Shown: piece by piece, positions 1 to 21,982 of the stretch
How the letters are laid out: every line of letters begins with the position of its first letter
Numbering within the stretch: position 1 is the first letter of the stretch
Virus record (IMG/VR): IMGVR_UViG_3300025641_000460
Span: 1 to 39,438 of that record
Strand: one strand, 5' to 3'
From: a virus
Length of the DNA: 39,438 nt
Made by a program: the position numbers and the translations under genes
Notes under the pieces: model-generated
Databases searched by the model: none
The model's input: the letters and a program-made list of their open reading frames with translations, nothing else
What the model was told of the DNA's origin: nothing

Positions 1-1737
1 TAAGATATCATCTGGTACAACTCTATCTCGCGTTTTATTCGCTTCAACAGCTGCATGATAGTTTTTAAGTACCCAAATAAGGTGAACGTTTTTAGAATTA
101 TACCCAGCTTCGATTAATGGTTTGATTACATCTGTGATTGATGATACTTTTTTAGCAGTAATATCAAACAATAAGTTAGGTAAAGTTTCTTTGTTATTCT
201 TACCACTTAACATTGATACTAACCATTTATCTTTTAACCCCATAGAATCTACAATATAATGTAATGATGCTACATTGTTAGGGCTCTTCAAATCAGATGC
301 AATATCAGAGATACTCATACCCTTACCAAGTACAAATTCTTCAATATGAGCTTTAGGTGATAACCCACCGCCTTTACCCGGTTTATCTGATAATGTCTTA
401 CCATACTTCTTATACCACTTATCAACTGAGAATTTACCTAATTGGTCTAACTTCCCAACTGCTTTCTTCATCTCATCAACATCTCTTACTTTGAATCCTG
501 CTGAATCTATAAAGTTATCTATTGCGAATCCCTTACCACTACCAGCACCACCTGCCATAAACACTATCTGTCCGTAAGGTGCTCTGTTAGAGAATGTGAT
601 TAGTTTTTCATCTATTTGTTCTTCGTTTACTGATTCTTTTAATGAAGATTTTTTGTTAATGATATTTTTTATATCATTGAATGTTTTAAATGGAAAATAT
701 CCTTTATTTGGTATAAACACTCTTGAAGTTGAATACTCTATTTTAATTTCTTGTAAATCGTAATTGTACTTATCTTCAATATTATACTTTACACTAAAAG
801 TACTCACATTATCTCCATATCTATTTGGAAATTCTGGAAATTCTTTTACTTCTCCTACTCCTTTTTTTGTTTTAAGGAATTTAAGAACAGCATCATGTAT
901 TTTTTTTAATGAGTTTACATCAGGTGATTCATTTACTGATTCAGTAATTACTCCATTCTTTACATTATAGTATGTAGGTATCTTATCCCAATCCTTACCA
1001 TTAGTTTTAACACCAGTATAAGTTTGGTTACCATCTTGCTTCCAAGCACCACCACCATCTTTGAATTTTATCATCGTTGGTGTATCTTCATACCAAGTCC
1101 ACTCACCATCAGATGCTTGAGCTACATACTTAGCCCACGATGGGATTTTTTTAAAGTTTGGTAATTTCTTTTTAGCTTCGTTAACTGATTCGTTTTTTAC
1201 ATCTGAATATAACCCTTTGACCCATTCGATAGATTCTTTATTTGGTTTAACCTGCTTACCATACTGTTTGAAGAATTTTTTAATAAATTCATCTTCTGTT
1301 GATGATGATTTGATTGTAAGGTGTATATCACTCATTATACCTTCTTTAAGTCCTTCAGGAACACAATTAGGAACTTGCTTACCACCTTTGGTTTTCATAC
1401 CAACTTGTTTGTAGTTATCCCAACAAACCTCATTGATTACCGATTCTATTGTTTCATTGAACTTGTTAGTGTGTTCTGATATAAATCTAAGTTTAGTCTT
1501 ATCACCTTTATATTTCTTAGTTAAGGCAGATAAGTAATTTCTGAATAATTTAAAGTTTTGTAGTATATCACCTCTAGTTGGTGTAATTGCAGCATCACTT
1601 CCATTGTCTCCACGAACTGCCTTCATACCATCTAAAAACTTACTATCTAATACTTTAAGATAATCAACAAATGTCATATCTTTGGCTTCACCCAATTGTG
1701 ATTTTATCTCTGATTGTATATATTCTTTTAAATTCAT
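1..1737 (-). CDS. Modular P-loop kinase-like phage protein, C-terminus beyond window (partial)
   Basis: The frame is open from an ATG at 1737 to the window edge: 579 codons, no stop. I read several modules. The N-terminus MNLKEYIQSE followed by QLGE|A resembles a T4 capsid-targeting peptide. Residues ~100-120 hold a CWDNYKQVGMK segment of a kind I associate with marine phage proteins. A tryptophan-rich module spans ~188-260. A P-loop domain follows, with Walker A GGAGSGK at 396-402 and a later basic NKTRDRVVP segment, reminiscent of zeta-toxin/kinase folds. The motif ESVNE occurs three times (183-187, 266-270, 368-372), each between modules. The ATG overlaps the upstream gene's TGA (ATGA), implying coupling. 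The kinase call is moderately supported; the polyprotein or packaged-cargo idea is inference. Substrate unknown. Confidence 0.75.
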   Translation of the reverse strand, partial: MNLKEYIQSEIKSQLGEAKDMTFVDYLKVLDSKFLDGMKAVRGDNGSDAAITPTRGDILQNFKLFRNYLSALTKKYKGDKTKLRFISEHTNKFNETIESVINEVCWDNYKQVGMKTKGGKQVPNCVPEGLKEGIMSDIHLTIKSSSTEDEFIKKFFKQYGKQVKPNKESIEWVKGLYSDVKNESVNEAKKKLPNFKKIPSWAKYVAQASDGEWTWYEDTPTMIKFKDGGGAWKQDGNQTYTGVKTNGKDWDKIPTYYNVKNGVITESVNESPDVNSLKKIHDAVLKFLKTKKGVGEVKEFPEFPNRYGDNVSTFSVKYNIEDKYNYDLQEIKIEYSTSRVFIPNKGYFPFKTFNDIKNIINKKSSLKESVNEEQIDEKLITFSNRAPYGQIVFMAGGAGSGKGFAIDNFIDSAGFKVRDVDEMKKAVGKLDQLGKFSVDKWYKKYGKTLSDKPGKGGGLSPKAHIEEFVLGKGMSISDIASDLKSPNNVASLHYIVDSMGLKDKWLVSMLSGKNNKETLPNLLFDITAKKVSSITDVIKPLIEAGYNSKNVHLIWVLKNYHAAVEANKTRDRVVPDDIL

Positions 1738-1901
1738 TTTTTATCTCCGTATGGGAATAATTTATTTAGTTTTGCTTGACGCTTAGAACACCCACAATCT
1801 GATTTACCAATTGATTGAGCTACCTTTTCCGCTAAGATATCCAATTTCATTGCTGATGTTATTTTTTTAACATCGTCCCCTAGCCCCTTTGACTTACTCA
1901 T
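1734..1901 (-). CDS. Small Cys-containing phage protein
   Basis: This 55-residue protein starts at the ATG reading MSKSKGLGDD, four bases after the stop of the ClpS-like gene. An upstream in-frame TTG at 1916 would overlap that gene and is less likely. The C-terminus carries a CGC cluster followed by a basic KLNKLFPYG segment, a pattern I loosely associate with short proteins in phage structural regions, possibly metal binding. Its TGA overlaps the ATG of the next gene. No function can be assigned. Confidence 0.65.
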   Translation of the reverse strand: MSKSKGLGDDVKKITSAMKLDILAEKVAQSIGKSDCGCSKRQAKLNKLFPYGDKK

Positions 1902-1905
1902 AATA

Positions 1906-2127
1906 CTATCCTTCAATTCTTAAATGTAAACCTTCTTTTACCATATTCCTATATACTTCTTTAATCAAATCCTCGTCATCAGAATCTTTTACTTCACATT
2001 GACCACTATTGTGAACAATACTTGCTATTGATGCTGATTGTAAATACGGATAATTTAAATACTGTTGTACAATTCGTATAACATTATCAAATGAGTTTAC
2101 ATCATCATTTAAAATATACAATTTCAT
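1906..2127 (-). CDS. clpS: ClpS-like N-degron adaptor
   Basis: The 73-residue protein matches the ClpS core almost end to end. It begins LYILNDDVNSFDNVI, corresponding to the ClpS LLNDDxxxFxxVI segment that shapes the N-degron pocket, continues with a VHNSGQCEV strand (ClpS VHxxGxxxC), and ends with a helix and strand typical of the family. Cellular ClpS docks on the ClpA/ClpC N-domain and delivers proteins with destabilising N-terminal residues to ClpP. The usual flexible N-terminal extension is missing, so the protein is nearly core only. That could make it an inhibitor or competitor rather than a normal adaptor. It sits in a chain of small genes upstream of the modular left-end protein. 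Family call is strong; role in infection is inference. Confidence 0.8.
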   Translation of the reverse strand: MKLYILNDDVNSFDNVIRIVQQYLNYPYLQSASIASIVHNSGQCEVKDSDDEDLIKEVYRNMVKEGLHLRIEG

Positions 2128-2129
2128 AT

Positions 2130-2137
2130 ATAAATAT
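2130..2137 (-). promoter_or_regulatory. ATATTTAT box just upstream of clpS-like gene
   Basis: On the minus strand ATATTTAT ends two bases before the ATG. The same octamer lies upstream of four other genes (2501, 6244, 9678, 27667). No TTnG box is found at the spacing used by the main promoter class. It could be a second promoter type or only an AT-rich translation-start context. Confidence 0.25.
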
Positions 2138-2139
2138 GT

Positions 2140-2301
2140 TTAAAGTTTGTATTTCGTTTTAAATTTTGTTATAACGTTAACCAATGAATCTAAATCACAA
2201 ACATCGGCTTCCATCGCATTATCATTGTCATCCATTACATACACTATCCACCCATCAATTGATTTCACTTCCGGTGATAGCATTTTTACTAATATTTTCA
2301 T
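2140..2301 (-). CDS. Small hypothetical protein, acidic
   Basis: A 53-residue ORF begins at ATG 2301 (MKILVKMLSP) inside the 3' end of the upstream gene, overlapping it by about 47 bases, and ends 13 bases before the clpS-like ATG. It fills what would otherwise be an empty gap. Composition is plausible for a real protein: hydrophobic start, an acidic DDNDN loop, basic C-terminus. No family is recognised. The long overlap lowers confidence in the exact start. Confidence 0.5.
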   Translation of the reverse strand: MKILVKMLSPEVKSIDGWIVYVMDDNDNAMEADVCDLDSLVNVITKFKTKYKL

Positions 2302-2494
2302 TTCTATTCTCCAAACGTTTTAGCATGATAACAAGTTTAGCACATTTTTCGTAATGTTCGATGTCAGTAAAATATTCCAATAATAGGTTTATAAACTTTA
2401 CCTTCATCTCATCTCCAAACTCGTCAGTCCATTTGAAATCTGTTTTTGTTAAGATTTCATATGCATTTATCATTACTTTCTTTTCGTAATTCAT
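2255..2494 (-). CDS. Small hypothetical helical protein
   Basis: The 79-residue product (MNYEKKVMINAYEIL) looks largely alpha-helical and charged, with a central hydrophobic stretch around LLLEYFTDI and no membrane segment or cysteine cluster. It lies downstream of the HAD gene and overlaps the following small ORF. An internal ATG at residue 8 is an alternative start. No homology is recognised. Confidence 0.55.
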   Translation of the reverse strand: MNYEKKVMINAYEILTKTDFKWTDEFGDEMKVKFINLLLEYFTDIEHYEKCAKLVIMLKRLENRNENISKNAITGSEIN

Positions 2495-2500
2495 TTGATA

Positions 2501-2508
2501 ATAAATAT
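2501..2508 (-). promoter_or_regulatory. ATATTTAT box upstream of small gene
   Basis: Minus-strand TATATTTATT ends about six bases before the ATG at 2494. No TTnG at 24 bases upstream, so it does not fit the main promoter class. One of five such sites; function uncertain. Confidence 0.25.
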
Positions 2509-2518
2509 AGAATTAATA

Positions 2519-3121
2519 TTAGTGAATTAGTTTATTTACATATTTCTGAACTTCTTCATCTACACTTTCACGAACTAACATGGTTTTGATTCTTACATTT
2601 GGGTATTTTGATTTGAGTCGGTCTACTGCATCTATGTTCTTCTTAGAATCATCGGCAAAAGCTATGTCGGTATACCCCTTCTTAATATGCTTTTCAATCC
2701 AATCTGCTTTATCCTTTGGGTTGTTACTTCCTAATGCTACAACGTAAACATCCATTCCATACTCATCTTTGAAGAATTTACGGACTGGAAATGCTAACTT
2801 CCTTGCAGTTAGAATCGTAACCTTTTTACTTGGGTTATCTAACATTCTCTGAAGTAGTTTAAAGTTCTTTTTGATTACCTTTGGATTGTTTAGTTTTCTA
2901 TTGAAATCTTTGAAATCAAATTCATCACCAGGTTTTTCATTATAAGTAGCGTAATCAGCAGGGTCTAACTTAGTTGTACTACCATCTTTATGGTTTACAT
3001 AGATAAAGGATACAGTTGTAGCAAGAGTATCATCGAAATCAAAAACACGAAGAACTTTACCTTCGTTTAATATTTGAATTTCTTCTTTAAATACCTCTGA
3101 TATAAATTTACTCTTATCCAT
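2519..3121 (-). CDS. HAD-superfamily phosphatase-like protein with CTS-like N-terminus
   Basis: The 200-residue protein has HAD motif I as FDFDDTLATT (nucleophile plus general acid Asp), motif II as TILTAR, and motif IV as FADDSKKN. This is the layout of phage HAD phosphatases and of the phosphatase half of polynucleotide kinase, so a phosphoester substrate such as a nucleic acid 3' end or nucleotide is plausible. The first ~20 residues (MDKSKFISEVFKEE, then ILNE|G) are not part of the HAD fold and resemble a T4 capsid-targeting peptide with an [LI]xE cut site. A second motif, ESVDE, sits near the C-terminus. It follows the metallopeptidase-like gene by one base. Fold is well supported; substrate and packaging are inference. 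Confidence 0.8.
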   Translation of the reverse strand: MDKSKFISEVFKEEIQILNEGKVLRVFDFDDTLATTVSFIYVNHKDGSTTKLDPADYATYNEKPGDEFDFKDFNRKLNNPKVIKKNFKLLQRMLDNPSKKVTILTARKLAFPVRKFFKDEYGMDVYVVALGSNNPKDKADWIEKHIKKGYTDIAFADDSKKNIDAVDRLKSKYPNVRIKTMLVRESVDEEVQKYVNKLIH

Positions 3122-3122
3122 A

Positions 3123-3878
3123 TTATTTTAATTTAGGGATTCCACCAATTTTAGGGATTCTCTTTTTCCATGTAGTATAAATCTCAGTTCTCTTCTTAGT
3201 CGTAATTACACCATCATCTACCAAAGAATCTAAATAATCATCAACCACTTTCTGATACGGTTTCTTCATTGTTTTAGCCTTTGAGTATAACCCATGTATG
3301 TTAGCATCTACCTCTTTTGGTAATAAGAAGTATTTGTAGTATAATTTAGGGTTGTCTTGTATTTTACGTCTCATAGCATCATCACCCCTCATTCTTTTAC
3401 CGGGTTTTTCTGAGGCAGAATCTTTACCATGTGTTAGGTGTTCTATTTCATGTCTTACCAAATCTCTGAGTACTGGTTGTATCTTTGAGAAAATACTTCC
3501 ATTTATATCATTCGGGTGGATACCGATATTCACTTCCAATGTTGGGTAATCTTCATCAGCTTCGGCAAACCCATCAATAAAGAACTTACCTTGTTCAACT
3601 CCATCTTCTGTTACTGCTAATTTAAGTTCTACCTCAACATCAACACCACTTATATTATCTGAGTAATCACCAACTTGTAATTTACGAGTTTCCTTTGCAA
3701 ATAAATCCTGCATTGTACCCATAGGGTCTTTACGAACCTCATACCCTTTAAACTTCTTTGGTTTAGATTCAGTACCACTACCTTTGATAGCACTCTTTAG
3801 AGTTTTGAATACATCTTTGTTTATCTGACCCGTCAGTTTATCGTACATACCTTCTACTATTATATCTTTTAGTTTCAT
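3123..3878 (-). CDS. HExxH metallopeptidase-like protein with CTS-like N-terminus
   Basis: This 251-residue protein contains RHEIEHLTHG at ~142-151, a zincin HExxH motif (H143, E144, H147). A downstream PKEVDA at ~187-192 could supply the third zinc ligand. It is flanked by beta-rich sequence before and helices after. The N-terminus MKLKDIIVE|G closely mimics the T4 internal-protein targeting peptide (MKTYQEFIAE), cut after Glu by gp21. A promoter box TATATTTG ends only two bases upstream of the ATG, so the transcript may be nearly leaderless. It heads a run including the HAD gene one base downstream. It is probably a virion-associated protease-like protein; target unknown. Confidence 0.7.
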   Translation of the reverse strand: MKLKDIIVEGMYDKLTGQINKDVFKTLKSAIKGSGTESKPKKFKGYEVRKDPMGTMQDLFAKETRKLQVGDYSDNISGVDVEVELKLAVTEDGVEQGKFFIDGFAEADEDYPTLEVNIGIHPNDINGSIFSKIQPVLRDLVRHEIEHLTHGKDSASEKPGKRMRGDDAMRRKIQDNPKLYYKYFLLPKEVDANIHGLYSKAKTMKKPYQKVVDDYLDSLVDDGVITTKKRTEIYTTWKKRIPKIGGIPKLK

Positions 3879-3880
3879 TA

Positions 3881-3912
3881 CAAATATACGAATTTTTTAT
3901 TAAATATCCAAC
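3881..3912 (-). promoter_or_regulatory. Bacteroidota-type promoter P1
   Basis: Minus strand: GTTGGA (3907-3912), 18-base spacer, TATATTTG (3881-3888). The 24-base offset is identical to seven other sites in the window. It overlaps the 3' end of the upstream gene, and the next ATG (3878) lies two bases after the -7 box. Confidence 0.65.
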
Positions 3913-5324
3913 TTTTTATCAGTTGTTTTGAAGTCTTTTTTTCTCATCACAGTCTTAGCGATTACTTTGTTCGACATTTTCATAAACGGAATGTTTATGT
4001 TTGTTCTATCATCTACTGCAACTACTGAATTGTAGGTATCTAAGAAATCTAAGAAATCTTTCTTCTTCTTAGATAATCGTTTGAAAAACCCAATCAACTC
4101 TGCAGATGATATCTCTTTATCGTTACGAGGGTCATTTAATCGGTCAAAGAAATGTTTATCTGTAAGTACTACATCCATTGGATTAAGTTTCTTATCTGCG
4201 AATGTATCAATCTTTTGTAAATCACCCATTGGAATTTCGTTGATTGCATCTTCCACCACATCATAACCACTACCATATGGTGCTGATTTACCATTGTGAT
4301 TAGGTGCTACATTTTCTTTTAGTGTTTTTTTCCAATCCTCTAATCCAACTAAATCAATCTTTTGTGATTGTGCATCATAGCCACAGTTATGACAAAAGTA
4401 TGGTCTATCATCACTATGTATAATATCCCAACTATGAGTACAATTAGAACATTGAATTGATGCACCTGTGCTTTCATTCATTAATCTGAATTTCATTAAT
4501 GGTTTGTTGTTGATTGTAATATCACCTTTTTCGTTCTTACCGATTGATTTAACAACGATTCTTTTATTTTTGAACTTACCACCCAATACAGTATCACCTA
4601 CGTTAATTGGTATCGTAATGTCTTCATTTGCTTTTTTAGTATTGTTAGCCTTCATCGTCTTTACTCTAATCGCTTCAGCTTGTTTTAATTTAGGAAGTAT
4701 TTTTCTAGCTACTTTTTGTATTTTTCCTGAACTCTTAGCTAACTTCTCAGAAAACTTTATCTTATCATTCATACTCATATCAGCCGGAGATTTCTTCATC
4801 ATCTTCTGCATCAATATTGTTTTTGCTTTTCTCTCAGCCGCTTTTAGTAAATCTGAATTAGACCGCTTCTTCTTCATCTTTCTGATACGTTTCTTTAATC
4901 CTCGTTTGAGTCTGGATTTAGATGTACGAGCCATCTTCATTCTAGCTGCCTTTCCCATAACTTCATTTAATGAACTTGCAATATCATTATAAAGTTCAAT
5001 TGCTTCATCTCTTTTTAAGTGTAATGTGAATGTAGGAACTTTTACATCTTTACCAAATTTGTAAATTGCAGCACCCCATCTGTGATGTCCATCCACTATG
5101 TAGTTATCCTTAGATATGATTAACGGTTTCATATCAGTAGGTTTGTTGTATTTTTTTGAGATACCAATAACCTTAGATTTAATGAGTTCTTTCTGAGAAG
5201 CTTTTAGACTTCCTGCCATACTCATTCCTTTAGTTACTTTTACTTTAGATTTTGCCATACTAAGAGCTTTACTCAGTTTTTGAGTATTCACTTGTGGCAT
5301 ATCTTTTCTGTTATAGACTGGCAT
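3900..5324 (-). CDS. Multi-module ParB-like / zinc-ribbon phage protein
   Basis: The 474-residue product reads as several proteins in a row. Residues ~1-117 form a ParB/sulfiredoxin-like domain with VDGHHRW at 77-83. Next is SSLNE|V at 118-122, then a very basic helical module (ARTSKSRLKRGLKKR and following) that resembles stand-alone proteins of marine T4-like phages. A small beta module follows (NVGDTVLGGKFKNK, ~241-282), then LMNE|S. A zinc ribbon has CSNC at 292-295 and CHNC at 311-314. The C-terminal domain (~360-474) contains a LTDKHFFDRLNDPRN segment. Short Glu-ending junctions separate the modules, compatible with cutting by a prohead protease. Its start overlaps the previous stop by one base. 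Overall function unknown; internal head or other virion protein is my inference. Confidence 0.7.
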   Translation of the reverse strand: MPVYNRKDMPQVNTQKLSKALSMAKSKVKVTKGMSMAGSLKASQKELIKSKVIGISKKYNKPTDMKPLIISKDNYIVDGHHRWGAAIYKFGKDVKVPTFTLHLKRDEAIELYNDIASSLNEVMGKAARMKMARTSKSRLKRGLKKRIRKMKKKRSNSDLLKAAERKAKTILMQKMMKKSPADMSMNDKIKFSEKLAKSSGKIQKVARKILPKLKQAEAIRVKTMKANNTKKANEDITIPINVGDTVLGGKFKNKRIVVKSIGKNEKGDITINNKPLMKFRLMNESTGASIQCSNCTHSWDIIHSDDRPYFCHNCGYDAQSQKIDLVGLEDWKKTLKENVAPNHNGKSAPYGSGYDVVEDAINEIPMGDLQKIDTFADKKLNPMDVVLTDKHFFDRLNDPRNDKEISSAELIGFFKRLSKKKKDFLDFLDTYNSVVAVDDRTNINIPFMKMSNKVIAKTVMRKKDFKTTDKKLDI

Positions 5325-6073
5325 TATTTACTCTTCTTTAATCTACTTTTTTCAGCTCTACCTCTATTCTTAGATTCTGATTCGAATCCAACAATCTTTC
5401 CACCCTTATGACTGGCATCCTTGCCATCTCCGTTACCGTATGTGCCCTTATCTCTATTGTACTTATTCAGTTCTGCTCTATACTTCTTTGCTTTTTCAGA
5501 TTTTCCGTACTTTGCATACTCTTTTTTGTAATCTCTTTTAGCTTCCTCTGTTACTGATTCGTATTTAATCATATCAGGATTAAACTTTTCAAAATTCTTC
5601 TTGGCCCATTTTACTGCATCTTCATAAGACTTAAATTTAATCCTATCTTGCTTAAATCCCTTTTTCTTATTTAGATAATCAATGTAAACTTTTTCTTCTG
5701 TAACAGGCTTTGCATCGTTGAATGCTTGGTCTAATTGTTCATCTTCTTTTAACCCATCATTACCATCTAGGTAACTATAAACTGATTTTAGATAATCATC
5801 TGCCAGAGTAATTTTTGCAAACACCCAACCATCAACATCCTCAATATTCTGTTCTTTCATCTTTTTATAGATTCCTTTAGAATATTTCATCGCTCTTTCG
5901 AGTGATGCGTATGTCATCGAGGTCTGCGAATCATCAACTTCTTCAAGGGATTCTGTGACCCTTGCTATCTCTTCGCTTATTATTTTTCTAATCTCAACTT
6001 TAGTACTTTCAGTAATATTCGTATTACCATACTTCTTTTCAAGAAGATTTACTAATTTTTCTAATCGTTCCAT
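5324..6073 (-). CDS. Two-part phage protein with HNH-like C-terminus
   Basis: The 249-residue protein has a charged helical N-terminal half, a central domain (KFKSYEDAVKWAKKNF), then ESVTE at 172-176 and a strongly basic C-terminal domain. The latter has an HNH-like arrangement: NRDKGTYGNGD, DASH at 219-222, then E and NRGRAEKSR. Similar NR...GNGD...SH...NR domains occur in T4-like marine phages. Because the motif is compact and not a perfect HNH, nuclease activity is uncertain. [LI]xE-type sites (SLEE|V) occur in the first 45 residues. The ATG overlaps the stop of the 54-residue gene (TAATG). Confidence 0.65.
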   Translation of the reverse strand: MERLEKLVNLLEKKYGNTNITESTKVEIRKIISEEIARVTESLEEVDDSQTSMTYASLERAMKYSKGIYKKMKEQNIEDVDGWVFAKITLADDYLKSVYSYLDGNDGLKEDEQLDQAFNDAKPVTEEKVYIDYLNKKKGFKQDRIKFKSYEDAVKWAKKNFEKFNPDMIKYESVTEEAKRDYKKEYAKYGKSEKAKKYRAELNKYNRDKGTYGNGDGKDASHKGGKIVGFESESKNRGRAEKSRLKKSK

Positions 6074-6237: not shown

Positions 6238-6243
6238 ATACTA

Positions 6244-6251
6244 ATAAATAT
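6244..6251 (-). promoter_or_regulatory. ATATTTAT box upstream of 54-aa gene
   Basis: Minus-strand ACATATTTATT ends six bases before ATG 6237 and overlaps the region just after the stop of the coiled-coil gene. Same octamer as at 2130, 2501, 9678 and 27667. No matching -33 box. Confidence 0.25.
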
Positions 6252-6945: not shown

Positions 6946-7383
6946 TTACTTATACACTTTGAAAGGTGCTGTTCTATTTTTATAACCTTCATAATCAGCT
7001 TTAAATTCTTCTAATCGAGGTTCTATATCATCTGATTTAATAATCCAAAATTGAGCTCCAACTGCTCTAGCCTTTTCGATTTCTTCTTCATCCTGAGAAG
7101 ATGAGATGATTCCGATAACTACTCCATTACCATAATCATAATTTATTTTTCTGATTAGTTCAATACCATCAAAAGAAGAACCAATTATATTTAAATCAAC
7201 AAATACACACTCTGGTCTTTCATCTATAGGCCCATCTGTAAACCATTTCTTAAAAAGTTTATCTGCTTCATCAGAAGAATCCAATGCTTCTAATGCAAGA
7301 GCAATATCTAATAGAGAACACGCATCCTCAAACACAAGATGAAACAAATTCTCATCATCTACTAACATTAACGAATCAATCAT
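6946..7383 (-). CDS. Single-domain response regulator (CheY-like receiver)
   Basis: This 145-residue protein is a complete receiver domain. It has the acidic pair D9-D10 (LMLVDDEN), the phosphoacceptor D63 at the end of beta3 (VFVDLN), the conserved Ser/Thr position in GIISSS (~94-96) and the conserved Lys in WIIKSD (K116). There is no DNA-binding output domain. The ATG overlaps the kinase's TGA by four bases (ATGA), so the pair is translationally coupled and surely cognate. A stand-alone receiver would act by binding a partner: perhaps the coiled-coil membrane protein next door, the holin, or a host regulator. Family call is very secure; the output is unknown. Confidence 0.9.
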   Translation of the reverse strand: MIDSLMLVDDENLFHLVFEDACSLLDIALALEALDSSDEADKLFKKWFTDGPIDERPECVFVDLNIIGSSFDGIELIRKINYDYGNGVVIGIISSSQDEEEIEKARAVGAQFWIIKSDDIEPRLEEFKADYEGYKNRTAPFKVYK

Positions 7384-8300
7384 ATCTTTATTCTCATTTT
7401 AGTTCCACTTTCAATTTCAACTGTGTCTGGGTCATCTTCTATTTCTTCAATTGAAAGTTCAAAGCCATGCTCTTTTAGTATAGCTTTACAAATATTTAAC
7501 CCAAGACCCGTTCCTTTCTCTTTTTGACCTTCTTTACGAACATATGGTTTAGATAACTCATCAAATTCACTCTGAGTCATACCTCTACCATTATCTTCGA
7601 TAACAATGAAGCTCCCTTTATTATAATTACCTTTAAAATATATTTTAACCCATTTTGTTGGTGAATCATTATATTTTAGTCCATTTCTAATTAAGTTATC
7701 AATTGCAGTACAAAAAAGTGGTTCGTTTACTTCTAATGTAGCAGGTAAATTATCATCTAATAATACCTGATTTTTATATGCAGTAAGTGATAGATATTCA
7801 TTTAAGATTTGTTTAATGTTATTTGGTGTTTTCGACATCTGAGCATTTTCTTTTACTAAATTAGTAAATTCATATACTCCACTATATACTTTTTGAGCAT
7901 GTTTAACACCATCTCCTAACAATTGTAGTGGTGCTCTTAGTTTTTTCTTTTGTTCATCATCCAACCTTCTTTGAAGTGAATTTAATCCTCTTGGAATGTA
8001 AGTATTGATACCACTATGCATATCATGTCTAATGATTTTTGCAGCGTGTTCTAAGTATATGTTCTTCTTACTTAAATCATCTTTAATTTGTTGTTTGTTC
8101 TGAATAAACTCACTTACCACTTTAAGGAATGGTGGCATGAAGAATACAACACAACCCCAGCCAAACTTAGCAAGAAATAAGGTTGGTTCACATAATCCAA
8201 ATACAATACAGGTTTGTACTGCAAAGAAGGTCATCATAATTAGACCTGCAACTATTAAGGAGATTTTGGAATTTATAGATATTCCATCAAGAGCGTTCAT
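7380..8300 (-). CDS. Membrane-bound sensor histidine kinase
   Basis: The 306-residue protein has two predicted membrane helices (~12-32 and ~42-60) with almost no loop between them, so no periplasmic sensor domain. The dimerisation region carries the phosphoacceptor motif AAKIIRHDMHSG (H92 followed by D93). The HATPase domain has an N box (DNLIRNGLKY, N206), G1 (EDNGRG, 236-240) and G2 (GTGLGL, 263-268). All catalytic boxes look intact, so autophosphorylation is expected. The gene lies between a YgaP-like membrane protein gene (adjacent) and its receiver partner (four-base overlap), inside the lysis region. The signal may be membrane state or a partner membrane protein. Kinase assignment is secure; lysis control is inference. 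Confidence 0.92.
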   Translation of the reverse strand: MNALDGISINSKISLIVAGLIMMTFFAVQTCIVFGLCEPTLFLAKFGWGCVVFFMPPFLKVVSEFIQNKQQIKDDLSKKNIYLEHAAKIIRHDMHSGINTYIPRGLNSLQRRLDDEQKKKLRAPLQLLGDGVKHAQKVYSGVYEFTNLVKENAQMSKTPNNIKQILNEYLSLTAYKNQVLLDDNLPATLEVNEPLFCTAIDNLIRNGLKYNDSPTKWVKIYFKGNYNKGSFIVIEDNGRGMTQSEFDELSKPYVRKEGQKEKGTGLGLNICKAILKEHGFELSIEEIEDDPDTVEIESGTKMRIKI

Positions 8301-10230: not shown

Positions 10231-11436
10231 CTACTTTCTATAAATTAGTTGATGTTCATATGTTTTTACCCTATTAACGTTTACTCTGAATATATCAAAT
10301 TCAAACTCACCAACCTCAATTTCAGATGACTCAAGTATGGTAGATAATTCGGTTATTAATTTATAAGAATACTCTGTTAATTTATTTCCATCAAAGTGTA
10401 TTTCTATGTCAGAATTGGTATTTACGTTGATTCTACTCCTTAAATCAAAGTCAGTATCTACCTGCTCTTTTTCTATATATTTATTGATAATATCATCATC
10501 TAAATCCATTTTGATTTTATCGCACCAAGGTTCTAATATTTCTAATAATTTACCATTACCATTTTCAACATTAAATTCAACATCATACTTTGGTGGTACG
10601 ATTGGCTTCATCAAAGAATCATGTTTACAATAATGTCCCCATTTTCTAAGGAAATTACGAGTTGAGCGATTGTTCTGAGTTAACCACTCATCTGTCTCTC
10701 TATTCTTCATAAAAACCTCACCATTTGGGTTTCTCTTAGCACCATCTGCAAATCTACTACCTCTACAAGTCATATGATATACAAACCCATCCCAAGTCTG
10801 AACGAACTTATATCCATTCAAATGAAATCTATTGAAGATATCAGTATCCTCTTTTGATTGTGGAGCAAATAACGGGTCATGCCCATTGATTGATGTGAAA
10901 TCTTCTTTAAATAAGAACCAGGGTGCAAAGATACCTTCGGTTGTTCTACCCTGCTTCAATGATGGAATCTGATTTAGGAGTTCATCTTCTAACTTTACAA
11001 ACTCTTCTGGTTCTATACCGAAATCCATAAGAATCTTCTCAGGCCCATCTGGATGTAGTGGTGGTTCTATTCTAGTAAGTGATACAACGTGCTTTGGTTT
11101 GATGTGTTCTAATACAGATTCTAATGCACCAGGACAAAGATACATATCAGCGTGATATATTCCTACAATTGGTGTATCTGCTATCTCTACCAACTCATCA
11201 TATAAAATTGTATGTCCTAATCGTTTAGGCCCTTCGTTTCTAATTGCTTTGAAGTTTGGGTCTTTTACCATCATATCCTCACACCACTCCCAAGTTCCAT
11301 CGTTACTGAAATCATCAGCAACACATATGGTTGGTTCTGGCCCACCATTCTTTCTGATTGAATCGTATGACCACTTCAAGTAGCGTAAATTGTTTCTTGA
11401 GGGTTGTATAAACGAAATATCTTTTTTACTTATCAT
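10231..11436 (-). CDS. Glycosyltransferase family 2 with C-terminal extension
   Basis: The 401-residue protein begins with a GT-A fold: ISFIQPSRNN, VADDFSNDGTW (first acidic motif, ~39-50) and GIYHADMYL (~92-100), an HAD in place of the usual DXD metal motif. A later QSKEDTDIFNRFHLNGY segment fits the GT2 acceptor/catalytic ED region. After ~residue 250 comes a C-terminal extension rich in Asp/Asn that I do not recognise. GT2 enzymes transfer sugar from a nucleotide sugar to an acceptor in the cytoplasm. It is the final gene of the glycan run, overlapping the previous gene by four bases. Confidence 0.85.
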   Translation of the reverse strand: MISKKDISFIQPSRNNLRYLKWSYDSIRKNGGPEPTICVADDFSNDGTWEWCEDMMVKDPNFKAIRNEGPKRLGHTILYDELVEIADTPIVGIYHADMYLCPGALESVLEHIKPKHVVSLTRIEPPLHPDGPEKILMDFGIEPEEFVKLEDELLNQIPSLKQGRTTEGIFAPWFLFKEDFTSINGHDPLFAPQSKEDTDIFNRFHLNGYKFVQTWDGFVYHMTCRGSRFADGAKRNPNGEVFMKNRETDEWLTQNNRSTRNFLRKWGHYCKHDSLMKPIVPPKYDVEFNVENGNGKLLEILEPWCDKIKMDLDDDIINKYIEKEQVDTDFDLRSRINVNTNSDIEIHFDGNKLTEYSYKLITELSTILESSEIEVGEFEFDIFRVNVNRVKTYEHQLIYRK

Positions 11437-12341
11437 AATTTAAAGTTTTTCTTAAATACAGCCTCAGTATAATGCTTATTATATAATTCTTTTGTTAATA
11501 TACGATTTTCTTCGTAGAAATCCAAATCATTCCATAGTTTATTTACTAATTTTCTTGCAGTTTCTAAATCACCATTCTCTACTGATAGATTTGGGTGAAG
11601 GATTCTTTGAGTATCTAACTCCTCATACCCAATACAAGGAATCCCTAAGTAACTACAGTTTAGAGCGAATGTACCGGCTGCATGGGTTCTCATCATATGA
11701 ATACCTAACTTCCTCTTATTCAACTCTTTAATCCACTCATTCCATTGTAGGTAAGGTAATTGTGTAATTCCTAATTCAGATTCACCTAACTGCTTCCTAC
11801 CCATTTGTGGTGAGTATATTTCATCTGTAACTGAATTAGCTAACATAAATGAATCGAATCCACCATACCAACTTACCATATTACCACCAATCATAATACC
11901 ACTTCTATCTTCCGTTGGTAACTCACCAACTGCATCTGATATCATTAGTGATTGTAATACTCTTACATCTGAATGATTTGTTAAACCTTTATAATATTTT
12001 CTATCTTGTTCGTTATGAGTAAATATTATATCAGAATCTACTAAGTTGTTATAGTAATGTATCTGTTTTTGTAAGTCATAATCTTGAAATAACCAAAATG
12101 GGCCCTCTTGCATTACACCTACTTTATCACACATTGTTTTTATATGTGTTAGATTTACAGATGTTGGATTATTCTTAGGAGTTATTACAATACCTAAATC
12201 AAATCTCTCATTGACTGTATCATTCATATTAAGATGTGTTGCTCCCATCGCAACCATCCATGCAAATTCCGTTCGCATATTAGGGTGAGTTCTATCAATC
12301 TTACCATTGAACTGCATTTCTGTAAAGAATGCTACTTTCAT
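11433..12341 (-). CDS. GT-B-like glycosyltransferase
   Basis: The 302-residue protein begins MKVAFFTEMQFNG and has the alternating Rossmann pattern of GT-B enzymes. A C-terminal nucleotide-binding half includes GIHMMRTHAAGTFALN, then GIPCIGYEELD, matching the donor-binding loop of GT4-like enzymes though without a canonical EX7E. It lies between PIG-L deacetylase and GT2 genes with four-base overlaps on both sides, so all are co-translated. Donor and acceptor unknown. Confidence 0.7.
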   Translation of the reverse strand: MKVAFFTEMQFNGKIDRTHPNMRTEFAWMVAMGATHLNMNDTVNERFDLGIVITPKNNPTSVNLTHIKTMCDKVGVMQEGPFWLFQDYDLQKQIHYYNNLVDSDIIFTHNEQDRKYYKGLTNHSDVRVLQSLMISDAVGELPTEDRSGIMIGGNMVSWYGGFDSFMLANSVTDEIYSPQMGRKQLGESELGITQLPYLQWNEWIKELNKRKLGIHMMRTHAAGTFALNCSYLGIPCIGYEELDTQRILHPNLSVENGDLETARKLVNKLWNDLDFYEENRILTKELYNKHYTEAVFKKNFKL

Positions 12342-12994
12342 ATTATATAATTTTTGTTAATTCTAAATTCTTCAACTACATACATATTCTTTTTAGAACA
12401 TTGGAAATTGGAATGAAATGTATCTAACGTTTCTCTTTTAAAGTATCTATGATGTAATTGTGATTTAAACTGCTTTAACATTTCAACTTTTGAGGAATAC
12501 TGCTGTTTAATATCCACTATTAGATTGGGAATCCACTCATCTAGTGTCGATGGTGATTTATATTCTATTAAAGATACCGGAGATTCTCTATTTGGCCAAA
12601 TCCCTCTAGTCAAAGCAGGCCCTAATCTGTAAACTAGCTGATGTTCAAAATGACTATCAATGTTTGATGGTGTAAATATACAATCGTAAACATTTTCTTT
12701 CAGAAACCTAGTTTCTATATGATTAACCCACTCTTCCTCTATGCGGTCTCTTAGAAAGTTGTTATCACAGAAATGAAGGTTTACGTTTTTTGGAAGTCCC
12801 CAATGACTCCACACATTTACAACCTCGTCTAATCTAGATACATTAGTTGTAGTATCACAATCACCACCATTTGATAAACATACTATATCAAATATAGTAT
12901 CAGTGCATTTAAGTATCGTACCCAACATACTGTATTCTATATCATCTGGATGTGGTGATAAACACAGTACTCTATTAAAATTTAATAACTTCAT
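12338..12994 (-). CDS. PIG-L / LmbE family deacetylase
   Basis: The 218-residue protein has the zinc-binding signature SPHPDDIEYS (~13-22) and a C-terminal SHFEHQ (HxxH-type) motif, the standard PIG-L pattern. Such enzymes remove N-acetyl groups from GlcNAc-type sugars, yielding free amines that can be modified further. In this cluster it fits with the UDP-GlcNAc-derived dehydratase/reductase pair and the aminotransferase. Four-base overlaps with both neighbours. Family call is secure; its specific substrate is not determined. Confidence 0.85.
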   Translation of the reverse strand: MKLLNFNRVLCLSPHPDDIEYSMLGTILKCTDTIFDIVCLSNGGDCDTTTNVSRLDEVVNVWSHWGLPKNVNLHFCDNNFLRDRIEEEWVNHIETRFLKENVYDCIFTPSNIDSHFEHQLVYRLGPALTRGIWPNRESPVSLIEYKSPSTLDEWIPNLIVDIKQQYSSKVEMLKQFKSQLHHRYFKRETLDTFHSNFQCSKKNMYVVEEFRINKNYII

Positions 12995-13704
12995 AACTTT
13001 TTTAATTTGGAAATATCCATACTAACATCCGATGGTTTATGTTCCGGTCTAAGAGAGTTAGCAACATTTAAATTTGTTTTCTTAGCCAAATCGTACATAG
13101 ATGTGGTATCACCACCTACATTATAAATACCAGTTTTTTCCTTATTAATTAAATCTACTATTATTTTACATATATTATCTACATAATCAAAATTACCAAC
13201 CATATCACCATACGCAATAGGATTGGAATATGGTGTAGTTTTGTGGCCACATCTAATTGTTAGATAATCAGCTGATTTTAACTCCACATACCCATCGGCA
13301 AGTAATTTAGTATAACTATACCAATTGTTACCATGTACAGGCACATCGGTCTCTGATGTATTTGGTAATGAGTTTGTGTATATATAATCAGTTGATATAT
13401 GCACTAATTTAATTTTAAACTTATTGCAGAAATCAACTAACCTAACTACTGATGCATAATTTACATCCCAATGAGATTTCTTATCATCTGAGTATGTGTC
13501 TGTATTTGCTATACAATTAATTATTGTAGATGGTTTTGAGTAACCAATTCTACCTTCATGTGGTAAATCAATATAATCTATAAATTCTTTTTCAAAATCT
13601 GCGGTTGTGATATCGAATCCATCTTTTTTACATTTGTACTTCCATCCCGTTTGGGTTGACATTTCTTTTCCTAAAAGACCTTGCCCTAATATTAAATTAC
13701 CCAT
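12991..13704 (-). CDS. RmlD-like NAD(P)-dependent sugar reductase (SDR)
   Basis: The 237-residue protein is a shortened extended-SDR: N-terminal GQGLLGKEM nucleotide-binding loop, VHISTDYIYT strand, and catalytic YSYTK (YxxxK), followed by a small C-terminal domain with GIYNVGGD. It resembles dTDP-4-dehydrorhamnose reductase (RmlD, usually ~290 residues), but the early segment is atypical, so the substrate may be a different 4-keto sugar. It overlaps the aminotransferase fusion gene by eight bases and the deacetylase gene by four. Confidence 0.78.
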   Translation of the reverse strand: MGNLILGQGLLGKEMSTQTGWKYKCKKDGFDITTADFEKEFIDYIDLPHEGRIGYSKPSTIINCIANTDTYSDDKKSHWDVNYASVVRLVDFCNKFKIKLVHISTDYIYTNSLPNTSETDVPVHGNNWYSYTKLLADGYVELKSADYLTIRCGHKTTPYSNPIAYGDMVGNFDYVDNICKIIVDLINKEKTGIYNVGGDTTSMYDLAKKTNLNVANSLRPEHKPSDVSMDISKLKKL

Positions 13705-15613
13705 TTTCTTTAAAGTATTGATTTACCCAATAGATTACATAATCGATATCTTCTTCTGTCATCGCTGGATGAACCGGTAGTGATATCAATCTCTCCCATT
13801 CTTTTTCGGCGTTTGGCCATTCTCTATCTTTGTGAGTTAGATGTTTCTGAATTATTTCATATTTGTGTAGAGGTTTGAAGTGTACAGATGTATGTACCTT
13901 CTTATTTGCAAGATAATCAATCAACTCACCTCTATGTTCGGAAGGTACTTTTGCACAATAGTATTGAACTGTTTCAGTATGTGGGGGTCTTTCAACGTGT
14001 TCACATAACCCTTCGTTATATCTTTTTTGAACATACCTTCTCCAATCTAATATTTGTGGTAACTTTTTAAGTTGTTCCAAACAGATTGCTGCATTTATAT
14101 CAATCATATAACATTTGTATCCAATCTTATCTACTTCGTAATCCCAAGTGTAACCTGGTTTACCAGTAACAGTATCTTCTTTTGCTACCCTATCGTATGT
14201 AGATGAAACCCCAAACCAAGTCATTTCTTTTAATTTGTGATATAATTCTTCATCATCTAAGGTAATCATTCCACCATCCCCACAAGGCATTGTCTTAACT
14301 GCTTGGAATGACCAGATTGCAATATCACCTTTAAGTCCTGCTCCTTCAGTATAACAACTATGTGCACAATCTTCAATAATCAAACCATCATAAAATTCTC
14401 TAATCTCATCAATGGGAGCGGGTACACCAGCTTGATTTACGACAATGATTGCTTTTGTATTTGGAGTGATACTTCTTCGTACATCCTCCACATCGATATT
14501 CATTGTGTATGGGTCTACATCAACTACATTTGTAGTAATGTTTTCTTGCCATAGTGGAATCATTGCAGTTGCCATAAATGAGATTGTGGGATTAATCACA
14601 TCACCATCTTTAATATCTAATGCTTTCATAACCAAATCTTGCCCATGTGAGTTGGATGTTACTGCTATTGCGTATTTTGCTCCAACCAATTCCGCAAACT
14701 TCTGTTCGAACTCAGCAACTTTAGGGCCCTTACCCCACCAACCACTTTCGATGACTTCAGTTAACGCTTCTATTTCTTCTTTACCACCATGTGGTCTTAG
14801 TACGGGTAACATTGTTTCTCTTATTTTCATAGTTGTTAATTTTTTAATAAATTTATCGACATCTGAACTTATTTCTCTTATTGTAGATTCACTTAACTTT
14901 TCGTTTCTTTTAATTATATCCCCCAATGGAACTCCTTCGTTCTTAGCTACACGCCTATCTTCTCTAGTTCTCTTTATTCTAGAACCAGCCCAATGGTGAT
15001 ATATTAAATCACCATAAATACCAAAGTAAAGTAAATGAAGATTGATGGTATTTGTTCTTTCTAAGACCCCCCACTTACCAATATGATTCTTTAGCCAAGT
15101 ATTAACGCCACCCCACCAATTACCACCTGCGTCTGCGGCTCGTGTACACATAGCGTGCATTAATCCAGAATCGGTTAATAAATATTCACCTTTAAATGCG
15201 TAAAATACTGGATGAGCAGTATTGTGATTTAAATCATGTTCATGTCTCGGTTCTTTTAAAGCTATAAACTTTTCTCTATCAACTCTGTCTAAAAAAGAAC
15301 TATCAATGTCATTTATAAAAAATGCATCTGAATCTAATTTTATTACTATATCATTGGGTTCTAAATTTTTCTTTATTTTGGGTAATGCTAATTTATTACC
15401 ATCTATATTATGGAACTTTTGTCTAGAGTCTGATATTAAAATATCAAAGTCATTTTTATAATTTTTAATATTTTCAGGCATATTCACATGAACCATATAG
15501 GTTTTATATGGCACTTTTAGATACTTTTTTATCGAATCTAATTGCACGTCTATCCAAAACGGATTTTCATAGTGTACTGATGTTATGTGTATTGTTCTAC
15601 TCATATAATTCAT
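13697..15613 (-). CDS. Glycosyltransferase-DegT/DnrJ aminotransferase fusion
   Basis: The 638-residue protein joins two enzymes. Residues ~1-255 are GT-A-like: IHITSVHYENPFW at the start, LDSDAFF (DXD at 94-96), and a LIYHHWAGSRIKRTRE ending. Residues ~262-638 form a complete sugar aminotransferase (DegT/DnrJ/EryC1/StrS), opening with MKIRETMLPVLRPHGG as if from an original start codon. It has SWF-type WSFQAVK with the PLP lysine K440 and IIEDCAHS with D415. The aminotransferase would convert a keto sugar to an amino sugar, and the GT half could transfer the product. An alternative start (MSRTIH) at 15604 reduces the overlap with the preceding gene from 17 to 8 bases. Confidence 0.85.
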   Translation of the reverse strand: MNYMSRTIHITSVHYENPFWIDVQLDSIKKYLKVPYKTYMVHVNMPENIKNYKNDFDILISDSRQKFHNIDGNKLALPKIKKNLEPNDIVIKLDSDAFFINDIDSSFLDRVDREKFIALKEPRHEHDLNHNTAHPVFYAFKGEYLLTDSGLMHAMCTRAADAGGNWWGGVNTWLKNHIGKWGVLERTNTINLHLLYFGIYGDLIYHHWAGSRIKRTREDRRVAKNEGVPLGDIIKRNEKLSESTIREISSDVDKFIKKLTTMKIRETMLPVLRPHGGKEEIEALTEVIESGWWGKGPKVAEFEQKFAELVGAKYAIAVTSNSHGQDLVMKALDIKDGDVINPTISFMATAMIPLWQENITTNVVDVDPYTMNIDVEDVRRSITPNTKAIIVVNQAGVPAPIDEIREFYDGLIIEDCAHSCYTEGAGLKGDIAIWSFQAVKTMPCGDGGMITLDDEELYHKLKEMTWFGVSSTYDRVAKEDTVTGKPGYTWDYEVDKIGYKCYMIDINAAICLEQLKKLPQILDWRRYVQKRYNEGLCEHVERPPHTETVQYYCAKVPSEHRGELIDYLANKKVHTSVHFKPLHKYEIIQKHLTHKDREWPNAEKEWERLISLPVHPAMTEEDIDYVIYWVNQYFKENG

Positions 15614-16361
15614 TGTATGTTCTTTCCATCCAATACGACACGTGTCTATCGTTCTGTGGAATTGCGTTAAAATGATAAACCCAACCTGCTTCTAAGAATC
15701 TCAATTCATCTTTAAACCACGAGTGGTTGGGTATGTGTAATAAATTCTTTCTAAATAAATCTTGTAGGTTATACCCTTCAGATAATTTAGTTACCTCTAT
15801 ATTATTTTTCTGTAACATAAAGTTGACCATTGTTTGGCCAGTACTTGCTTTTATCGTATCTCTGTAATGTTTTATTTCATCACCCCTATTAAGATACAAA
15901 TCCTTAATCTCATCAAAGAACGGTTTATGTTTTTTGTTTACAATTACAAACCCAGTATTAAAGTAATCATATGGTTTTACTAATGGTTCATTTGGAAACA
16001 TAGCATCACCCCATCCTTTGATACTACGAGTTGTCCACTCATAACACCCATTATTTATAACCGCTGAATAATTGTGATTGGTTTCTTCAAAGAAGTTAGG
16101 GCAGTTGGGATGAACTATTGTATCTGCATCAACAATTAACACTTGGTCATAATCTATATTGTTATGTTCTATGATATCAAACACCCACTCTCTCTGCATT
16201 ATGATTGGGAATGTATCAGAATTCATAATAGGGTCAGTCCACTCTAAACATATAGCATCGTTCTTAGCACACCATGTCTTCCAACTCTTTACTGAGTAAT
16301 GATATGGTGTACTTCGTCCGTTGCCTAAATCAACATTCGGTATGAATACTACATTTTTCAT
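15597..16361 (-). CDS. GT-A glycosyltransferase (GT8/GT2-like)
   Basis: The 254-residue protein has a GT-A layout with VLIVDADTIVHPNC (DXD-type DAD at ~80), a central NTGFVIVNKKHKPFF segment typical of GT8-like and nucleotide-diphospho-sugar transferases, and a C-terminal GWVYHFNAIPQNDR with a metal-binding-type His. It overlaps both neighbouring genes. The sugar transferred cannot be told from sequence. Confidence 0.75.
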   Translation of the reverse strand: MKNVVFIPNVDLGNGRSTPYHYSVKSWKTWCAKNDAICLEWTDPIMNSDTFPIIMQREWVFDIIEHNNIDYDQVLIVDADTIVHPNCPNFFEETNHNYSAVINNGCYEWTTRSIKGWGDAMFPNEPLVKPYDYFNTGFVIVNKKHKPFFDEIKDLYLNRGDEIKHYRDTIKASTGQTMVNFMLQKNNIEVTKLSEGYNLQDLFRKNLLHIPNHSWFKDELRFLEAGWVYHFNAIPQNDRHVSYWMERTYNELYE

Positions 16362-17788
16362 ATAAGTTCCTTTATACTTTGTATTAAATTAATTGGTTTC
16401 AATGTTGCATTATGTTTTTTCATATCATCTAATTTATCCATATCGTAAACACTTTCCAAATCAATCAAACTGATTTGCCAGAAGAAATCATCTTTTATAA
16501 TGTTAATTGGAACTAAATCATAAAATACTTTATTTCTTTTTTTACAATTTCTTAACACAGTCCTAACAAACCACTTCGGTATTGATTCATAATCACCTTC
16601 GTTATCTGATAACATTGTTCCGGCTAATGTGATATATCCAATTATGTTTTTATCATCATCTTCTATTAAATGAGTCATTGAAGGTGCTAATCCGTTTAAG
16701 AATCCACTATCCAAAGCATCTCTAAAGTTCTGTAATCTACAATACTCAGGATGAAATACCTTTACATAGTAACCATCACCTGCATAAACTACTCTTCCTT
16801 GATTAACACCATTGGCAATCCTATTGTACTTATCCTTTATTAATGTAAGAGATTTTAAATCTAACTCTGTTACATTTATACGAGGTCTGAATGATGGTAA
16901 TCCCCATTTGTACGTTATCGTATCGAATGGGTATCCTAAATCAGAACCCCTATCAAAGAATCGTTTGATGCCATCCCAATCACGCATCTCTCGTACCGAA
17001 TTCATATTCTTTCTTGCAAAGTAGAATCGAGGTTCTAAGAACTTATACCCATCTATAGTGATACAGAAATTCTCTAAGATATCATCATCACCATTAGCAC
17101 CAAAGTAATCAAACTTAGTTTCATTTGCGGGGAAGACATCGATACCTTTTGGAAATGAGATGTTTTGTTTTCTTAATTTAGATGAAATGATTATATCTAA
17201 ATCATCATTATCTCTAACCCCCATAACTGTTAGAATCGAACTCTGACATAAACAATAATCACCCCTACTGATTCCCATTTCATCTAACTTAGATAAATGT
17301 TTGAGTTTGGATGTCGGTGGTTCAATTCTTATTTTATTATCATTTACCCATGCTTTATTAAATATCTTTTCAGTTTCCATATAAAATGGAATATACTTTT
17401 CACCTCTAATCAACCTACCAATCATTGCAAACCCACGATGGTAACTGTGTTTCATAAACCCATTATCAAATTCAACCGGATTACTTTGTAGGTACTCTTC
17501 AATTTCATCATCACTCATTGGTTTTAATGAATTATAGTACTCTTCTGTGAGTTCATTCCATCCCAAATTGTGGTGATTTTCAACATTATGTCTAAACCCT
17601 GCTTTCATACAGTTCCAATACTGCCAGTTCTCTGGTACTAAATTAGTTGGTATTGGGTTGGATTTCCAATACTTAACAATATCTCTCACATACTTCAATT
17701 TACCATTAAGATTTAGTATCTGTTTACTGACACCACCATTGGCAACTTCCATATTTAAAAAATAATCTAAACTAATTGGTGAATACAT
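16358..17788 (-). CDS. Nucleotidyltransferase-like plus kinase-like protein
   Basis: The 476-residue protein appears to have three parts. Residues ~30-150 form a helical region with FMKHSYHRGFAMIGRLIRG. Residues ~165-300 contain ILTVMGVRDNDDLDIII, the GxRxxDDxD arrangement of LicD-type and related nucleotidyltransferases. Residues ~325-476 look like a remote protein-kinase/aminoglycoside-kinase fold: YAGDGYYVKVF (candidate Lys343), GYITLAGTML hinge, then FYDLVPINII and SLIDLESVYD (candidate catalytic and metal Asp). It could add a phospho-group such as phosphocholine to a glycan. A promoter lies in the 53-base gap upstream. Domain calls are tentative but the gene is certainly real. Confidence 0.6.
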   Translation of the reverse strand: MYSPISLDYFLNMEVANGGVSKQILNLNGKLKYVRDIVKYWKSNPIPTNLVPENWQYWNCMKAGFRHNVENHHNLGWNELTEEYYNSLKPMSDDEIEEYLQSNPVEFDNGFMKHSYHRGFAMIGRLIRGEKYIPFYMETEKIFNKAWVNDNKIRIEPPTSKLKHLSKLDEMGISRGDYCLCQSSILTVMGVRDNDDLDIIISSKLRKQNISFPKGIDVFPANETKFDYFGANGDDDILENFCITIDGYKFLEPRFYFARKNMNSVREMRDWDGIKRFFDRGSDLGYPFDTITYKWGLPSFRPRINVTELDLKSLTLIKDKYNRIANGVNQGRVVYAGDGYYVKVFHPEYCRLQNFRDALDSGFLNGLAPSMTHLIEDDDKNIIGYITLAGTMLSDNEGDYESIPKWFVRTVLRNCKKRNKVFYDLVPINIIKDDFFWQISLIDLESVYDMDKLDDMKKHNATLKPINLIQSIKELI

Positions 17789-17809
17789 ATTTTTATTTAA
17801 TTATTTATA

Positions 17810-17841
17810 CAAATATACAATATTTTTTTGACTTATCCAAA
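17810..17841 (-). promoter_or_regulatory. Bacteroidota-type promoter P2
   Basis: Minus strand: TTTGGA (17836-17841), 18-base spacer, TATATTTG (17810-17817). It lies exactly between the CapF-like gene stop (17842) and the next ATG (17788), splitting the glycan cluster into two transcription units. Confidence 0.75.
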
Positions 17842-21980: not shown

Positions 21981-21982
21981 AA

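Follow-up and report, generated by a model that had tools for sequence, protein, structure and literature searches.

Candidate capsid-targeting tags and prohead-protease-type module junctions in a mosaic gene set of a T4-like phage fragment

Why do several enzyme-like proteins encoded at one end of a virus fragment share short N-terminal helices ending in [LI]xE, as internal head proteins of phage T4 do? We addressed this question in IMG/VR record IMGVR_UViG_3300025641_000460, a 39,438-base virus fragment analysed over its full length (the window), in which the candidate genes occupy the left 6 kb. By tblastn the window is T4-like, and its closest named phage is Microcystis phage Mel-JY01 (49% polymerase identity). 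A preliminary description of the sequence had proposed that a metallopeptidase-like, a HAD, a P-loop and a ParB-like protein are packaged in the head by means of such tags. Our analysis makes it probable that the left-end genes encode mosaic head cargo of a T4-like phage, partly in the form of polyproteins, trimmed by the prohead protease. A short N-terminal helix would direct each left-end protein into the prohead core, like the T4 capsid-targeting sequence. A gp21-type prohead protease would cut after [LIV]xE and remove the tag, and would also cut the mosaic proteins at their module junctions to leave separate enzymes in the head; the freed enzymes would then enter the host along with the DNA. 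The core cargo idea stands after every test run and the interpretation as a whole is partly supported, the main uncertainty being whether the junctions are cut and which protease cuts them.

The metallopeptidase gene (3123-3878; all cargo genes, tags, junctions and upstream motifs given here lie on the minus strand) begins MKLKDIIVE/G, where the slash marks the predicted cut. This capsid-targeting-like peptide (3852-3878) has the spacing L3-x-x-I6-I7-x-E9, which is that of the T4 capsid-targeting sequence shifted by one residue, with the cut predicted after E9 (codon 3852-3854). The T4 tag uses residues 4 and 7 for targeting and residues 8 and 10 for processing (PMC9026906). The HAD protein (2519-3121) has an N-terminal extension, MDKSKFISEVFKEEIQILNE (3062-3121), with ILNE/G at residue 20 and an additional FISE/V at residue 9, giving candidate cuts after E9 (3095-3097) and E20 (3062-3064). 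The P-loop open reading frame (ORF; 1-1737), which runs off the left end of the window, starts with the tag MNLKEYIQSEIKSQLGE (1687-1737) and has QLGE/A at residue 17, with a candidate cut after E17 (1687-1689); the preceding MNLKEYIQSE is itself not [LI]xE. These three N-termini were thus read in the sequence as the preliminary description had claimed, although the HAD and P-loop motifs, at residues 9/20 and 17, match the T4 spacing inexactly.

Such N-termini were more frequent than in shuffled sequences. Among 868 proteins encoded by the window or by five relative records, [LI]xE[AGSN] with the E at residues 5-14 was present in 55, compared to 24 +- 4.8 in shuffled N-termini (500 shuffles, highest count 38). 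A T4-derived spacing pattern (hydrophobic at 4, 7 and 8 plus E at 10, with a shift of at most 1) was found in 28 of 799 non-redundant proteins, compared to 5.6 +- 2.4 after shuffling (maximum 14 in 1000 shuffles). The N-terminus profile that had been suggested as a check showed this spacing in 3 of 45 proteins of the window alone versus 0.35 in shuffled sequences, but the metallopeptidase was the sole cargo candidate among the three. Carriers other than enzymes included the major capsid protein gp23 (MKINNILNES) and gp21-adjacent proteins in relatives, and a gp22-like prohead core protein begins MKSDLLKEA, which fits a looser pattern. The motif is therefore a mark of proteins whose entry into the prohead is known or expected. 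The metallopeptidase resembles T4 IPI-IPIII and Alt in its tag, which in those proteins spans about 10 residues with hydrophobic positions 4, 7 and 8 and E10, and T4 IPI-IPIII and Alt are head cargo whose [LI]xE is cut by a gp21-type protease, a packaging and a cut that are predicted here. Unlike the T4 internal proteins, which are small single proteins, the candidates in the window are enzymes in mosaic, often multi-module proteins in which the cut motif is also internal. This internal motif, which recurs at module junctions inside the P-loop and ParB-like ORFs, is the stronger signal and had been missed in the preliminary description.

In the metallopeptidase, the HExxH motif of the metallopeptidase-like domain (3123-3851) reads RHEIEHLTH, and alignment revealed invariant R142-H-E-I-E-H147 and E189, the latter of which could be a third metal ligand. 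The family was found in 80 loci, and the named phages carrying it, by tblastn, were Flavobacterium phages only. Residues E9, Y12 and D13 and the HExxH motif are invariant across 46 aligned homologues. In close relatives the protein stands alone and its tag varies (MKLKQLILE/G, MIRLKHLIVE/G, MIKLSRLLIE/G), while relatives of about 30-40% identity carry it as an internal domain within fusions of 500-1148 residues, located after nucleotidyltransferase, NMNAT-like or zinc-ribbon domains. In Flavobacterium phage immuto the metallopeptidase junction is VMAE/GRYD, and the HAD protein starts MGNLADLLLEE. All 41 readable positions equivalent to E9/G10, which include two stand-alone copies, have xE/G, and 40 have a hydrophobic residue at P3 (counting back from the cut, with the E at P1); the upstream domains and sequences differ. 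In the AlphaFold model (mean predicted local distance difference test score, pLDDT, of 84), residues 1-9 have pLDDT below 50 and lie outside the fold, which is confident from residue 11. The protein matched no Pfam or NCBIfam family, including metallopeptidase families; Foldseek returned no PDB match to its model under E 1, and VIA-align gave weak helical matches alone (best Z 6.0) and nothing firm.

The HAD-like phosphatase domain (2519-3061; PHROG 415 polynucleotide kinase, E 2e-6; Pfam DUF2608, E 1e-5) showed the same arrangement. Related copies have LNE, IRE, LRE or LSE/G ahead of LRVFDFDDTLA, and relatives in which HAD is an internal module have the same [LI]xE/G junction at this position. 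In L096 and L098, HAD is the last module, following a poly(A)-polymerase-like domain, a zinc ribbon and an HD domain, with INE/G at the joint; the corresponding joints in L097 and L103 are ISE/G and LSE/G, respectively. The L096 protein (L096:4276-6558) combines an N-terminal tag with poly(A)-polymerase-like, zinc-ribbon, HD and HAD domains in one virus protein.

The P-loop ORF contains four candidate junctions downstream of its tag. A short mobile VPNCV module follows E103 at VINE/VCWDNYKQVGMKTKGGKQVPNCVP (VINE/VCWDNYKQVG; 1357-1431), and three copies of an ESVNE junction motif occur at E187 (ESVNE/AKKKLPNF, 1177-1179), E270 (ESVNE/SPDVNSL, 928-930) and E372 (ESVNE/EQIDEKLITFSNR, 622-624), the last directly ahead of the P-loop domain (1-621; PHROG 5268, weakly zeta-toxin-like), which is cut off by the window end. 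Relatives of 302-841 residues retain the tag, MNL[KR]E[FY]IQ.EIKSQ[LIM].E, and the P-loop domain while the intervening modules swap, and where relatives lack the inserted modules, their N-terminal tag abuts the P-loop domain at the position equivalent to E372. The VPNCV-type short module was found in 327 phage records, mainly T4-like cyanophages. A CWxGY...VPNCVP module resembling that of the P-loop ORF is also borne by the head maturation protease of Halovirus HSTV-1 (L169:1787-3208). The ParB-like mosaic protein (3900-5324) has candidate junctions at E121 (SLNE/V, 4962-4964), E284 (LMNE/S, 4473-4475), E337 (LKE/N, 4314-4316) and E363 (INE/IPM, 4236-4238), and mosaic alignment showed that proteins of this type combine a ParB-like domain, a KOW-like domain, a zinc ribbon and a C-terminal IPM module. 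The seams of both mosaics are again [LIV]xE, and each ORF, like relatives such as the L096 protein, joins at least two biochemically disparate domains in one polypeptide, as polyvalent proteins do. A neighbouring two-part protein (5324-6073) consists of a helical N-terminus, a junction SVTE/E (E176, 5546-5548) and a small basic module (PHROG 6437).

The association between boundaries and motif held for unselected junctions. Of 500 automatically detected mosaic boundaries, 234 had [LIVM]xE nearby, compared to 108 +- 9 at random positions in the same proteins, and P3 before the nearby E was hydrophobic at a frequency of 0.41 versus 0.26 (p = 4e-17), an enrichment absent from P2 and P4-P8. Where proteins lacked a seed module, their boundaries gave a weak P3 signal (0.35 versus 0.28) and a similar one at P5. 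For 11 unrelated modules in 84 distinct upstream contexts with E at P1, P3 was L, I, V, M or F in 85% (71% L or I; p = 6e-28), compared to 27.6% hydrophobic P3 before any E in the same proteins, and other positions were flat. In an independent set of 80 cyanophage-type contigs containing the AAWT module, E directly preceded this module in 28 of 32 distinct contexts, with a hydrophobic P3 in 61% (p = 6e-5), and the VPNCV module of the same set had a hydrophobic P3 in 80% (p = 3e-5). The junction sets therefore show what is expected of gp21 substrates, [LI]xE at P3-P1 with flat neighbours. A universal xE rule was rejected, since neither the FDYTP nor the PcnB-like modules begin after xE.

These statistics also bear on an alternative in which the helix mediates packaging and the cargo stays multidomain, with internal [LI]xE motifs serving only as uncut linkers or recombination seams. 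There is precedent in P1 DarB, which is packaged by an N-terminal signal (PMC9024508), and in the N4 virion RNA polymerase, which is packaged unprocessed. In addition, the three ESVNE linkers of the P-loop ORF (window 622-1191) have almost the same coding sequence, gaatcagt(t/a)aa(c/t)gaa, a threefold repeat that is possibly a recombination seam, and seams of this kind could aid recombination. Recombination, however, does not require that P3 itself be hydrophobic and the positions beside it flat across unrelated modules, and we regard uncut seams as unlikely.

The preliminary description had proposed to look for a gp21-type protease elsewhere in the genome. Such a protein (Peptidase_S77) is present in 13 of 20 relative records, among them most of the large ones as well as Mel-JY01 and Flavobacterium phage immuto, but not in the window, itself a fragment. 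The major capsid protein gp23 was present in 15 relative records. Two of these lack gp21, and in them gp23 lies only 2.4 and 3.1 kb into the contig; in G004, gp21 and gp23 are about 3 kb apart, so that the gp21 position in the two records would fall off the contig end, just upstream of gp23. In major capsid proteins of the lineage, the expected start of the mature shell protein is marked by Q[LI][VI]SE/A (e.g. QLVSE/A), which by its position is likely to be the gp23 maturation site. V or I at P3 therefore fits as well as L.

A different protease has been proposed for comparable proteins. Iyer et al. 2017 attribute the processing of polyvalent proteins to embedded metallopeptidase (MPTase) domains (PMC5512222), and the HExxH module does sit inside such fusions here, so that the left-end proteins could be polyvalent proteins in which the embedded metallopeptidase itself, rather than gp21, makes the junction cuts. 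Against this, the [LI]xE consensus of the junctions fits both the published specificity of gp21 and the site at which gp23 of the lineage is likely to mature, the site is present on the metallopeptidase itself, and cyanophages, in which tblastn detected no such metallopeptidase, have the same junctions in their proteins. The consensus and its occurrence in these cyanophages favour gp21, and self-cutting appears very improbable. Our candidates resemble polyvalent proteins (PMC5512222) in uniting unrelated enzymatic and nucleic-acid-binding modules, including metallopeptidase and ParB-like ones, in one polypeptide with predicted injection; they differ in their T4-like setting, in having modules that Pfam models fail to recognise, and in that processing is predicted to proceed via the prohead protease at [LI]xE. 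Neither the window proteins nor the metallopeptidase family had a Pfam or NCBIfam match to polyvalent-protein families such as MPTase-PolyVal or DdrB-ParB.

Published mass spectrometry places tagged enzymes, and two of the module types described above, in the virions of related phages. In cyanophage S-CREM2, which has a published virion proteome of 52 proteins (PMC10665884), 5 of the 29 non-tail proteins detected carry tags of exact T4 spacing, compared to 1 of 167 undetected ones (Fisher p = 0.0003), while a looser N-terminal pattern separated the two groups less well (p = 0.012-0.013). The five are an NMNAT (MKNFSSFLTE/A), an APH-like kinase (MKRFDAFLTE/E), a SAM hydrolase (MKDFDSFLEE/F), gp13 (MKDLHSFLTE/Q) and gp136 (MQTFSMFFSE/D). 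The virion NMNAT of S-SCSM1 likewise starts MKSFLQFLKE/A according to the virion list of that phage (PMC9602691). Modules related to the VPNCV module of the P-loop ORF are present in two virion-detected proteins, S-CREM2 gp160, which holds VPNCV-like and KVKxRY modules, and S-SCSM1 ORF29, a mosaic of KVKSRY, PNCV-type (LFNE/DCW) and AAWT (QVSE/G) modules (PMC9602691). The two cyanophages resemble the system described here in T4-spaced tags on enzymes, which in their case are found in virions, and in VPNCV-type and KVKxRY modules. The accessible parts of the two papers differ from our account in that they make no mention of tags or of a cleavage motif, and they leave contamination open (PMC10665884, PMC9602691).

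Several observations weigh against the cargo interpretation. The authors of both cyanophage studies note that such enzymes might contaminate CsCl-purified virions (PMC10665884, PMC9602691). The ParB-like ORF had been listed with the cargo set, yet it begins MPVYNRKDMPQ and has no N-terminal tag, its [LI]xE motifs being internal only, and its AlphaFold model (mean pLDDT 56, poor past residue 228) cannot place the junctions in the C-terminal half. The window has no gp21. The module starts of the 84-site logo were picked after the E was seen, which makes the unselected-boundary and cyanophage-type tests the fairer ones, and [LIVM]xE is also present inside domains, so that many copies of the motif need not be cut. 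Two further points would suit a scenario in which the enzymes work in the host cell during infection without ever being packaged, the tag likeness being a convergent short amphipathic helix. A sister clade does without the HAD tag, and some related copies start directly at M-GKVLRVFDFDD; the HAD tag is therefore optional. The metallopeptidase gene is preceded by an early-type motif, GTATATTT (3882-3889), which is kept in G004, G006 and G007, that is, in four phages including the window; a late promoter had been expected at every cargo gene and was thus not found. T4 internal proteins are likewise made early, so the motif is not decisive. Convergence would leave unexplained why E9 is invariant while the rest of the tag varies, as well as the junction logo, and tagged NMNAT, kinase and module-bearing proteins are among those reported from virions of related phages. 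We consider it improbable that the enzymes are never packaged, and retain packaging with prohead-protease trimming as the preferred explanation.

Upstream motifs fell into two classes. A late-type motif, TATTTAT[AT], lies ahead of many structural genes, its form TATTTATA occurring in 14 upstream regions of G004 compared to 0.8 expected, and an early-type motif, GTATATT[TA], lies ahead of polymerase, clamp and SSB genes. At the left end of the window, late-type TATTTATT occurs at 6243-6250, before an ORF at 6237 and upstream of the cargo genes, and at 2500-2507, before ORF 2255-2494; TATTTATA occurs at 2129-2136, before a ClpS-like ORF leading to the P-loop ORF. The ClpS-like ORF (1906-2127) encodes a homologue of the Clp protease adaptor ClpS (Pfam E 2.5e-9). 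In upstream regions of G004, G006, G007, G016 and the window, the late-type motif differs from T4 TATAAATA. The early-type motif resembles the Bacteroidota TAnnTTTG element, a likeness hinting at a Bacteroidota host.

Elsewhere, the window encodes T4-like replication proteins on the minus strand, namely DNA polymerase (36649-39168), sliding clamp (35872-36585) and clamp loader (33285-34214). About 14 kb (10231-24348) is devoted to glycosyltransferase and sugar-nucleotide biosynthesis genes, in a T4-like phage, including one for a 638-residue protein with a DegT/DnrJ/EryC1 aminotransferase domain. At 6946-8300, a response-regulator-like protein (under the Pfam cut-off) adjoins a histidine-kinase-type ATPase protein.

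Parts of this picture are already established or have been proposed, including T4 cargo with capsid-targeting sequences, targeting of P1 DarB (PMC9024508), head processing in giant phages (PMC10052503) and polyvalent proteins. In SPN3US and other phiKZ-like giant phages, prohead proteases such as gp245 also process internal head proteins after xxE; unlike the junctions described here, processing there, in the portion of the source available, chiefly strips off long N-terminal propeptides at A-x-E, and that portion does not describe the release of multiple enzymes from one protein (PMC10052503). What would link these parts, namely module joints formed by prohead-protease sites and T4-spaced tags on the virion enzymes of cyanophages, was not found in a limited literature search. 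For this lineage, and for marine T4-like phages more widely, it is about an even question whether the head carries a modular polyprotein cargo, in which interchangeable, site-headed enzyme cassettes behind a capsid-targeting tag would be released as effectors inside the capsid by the head-maturation protease. If true, this would provide a sequence rule by which head-borne phage enzymes and their cut sites could be predicted, would account for the recurrent NMNAT, kinases and similar enzymes in cyanophage virions, and would supply the protease that frees polyvalent-type proteins. Many hypothetical proteins of marine phages would then become testable early-infection effectors.

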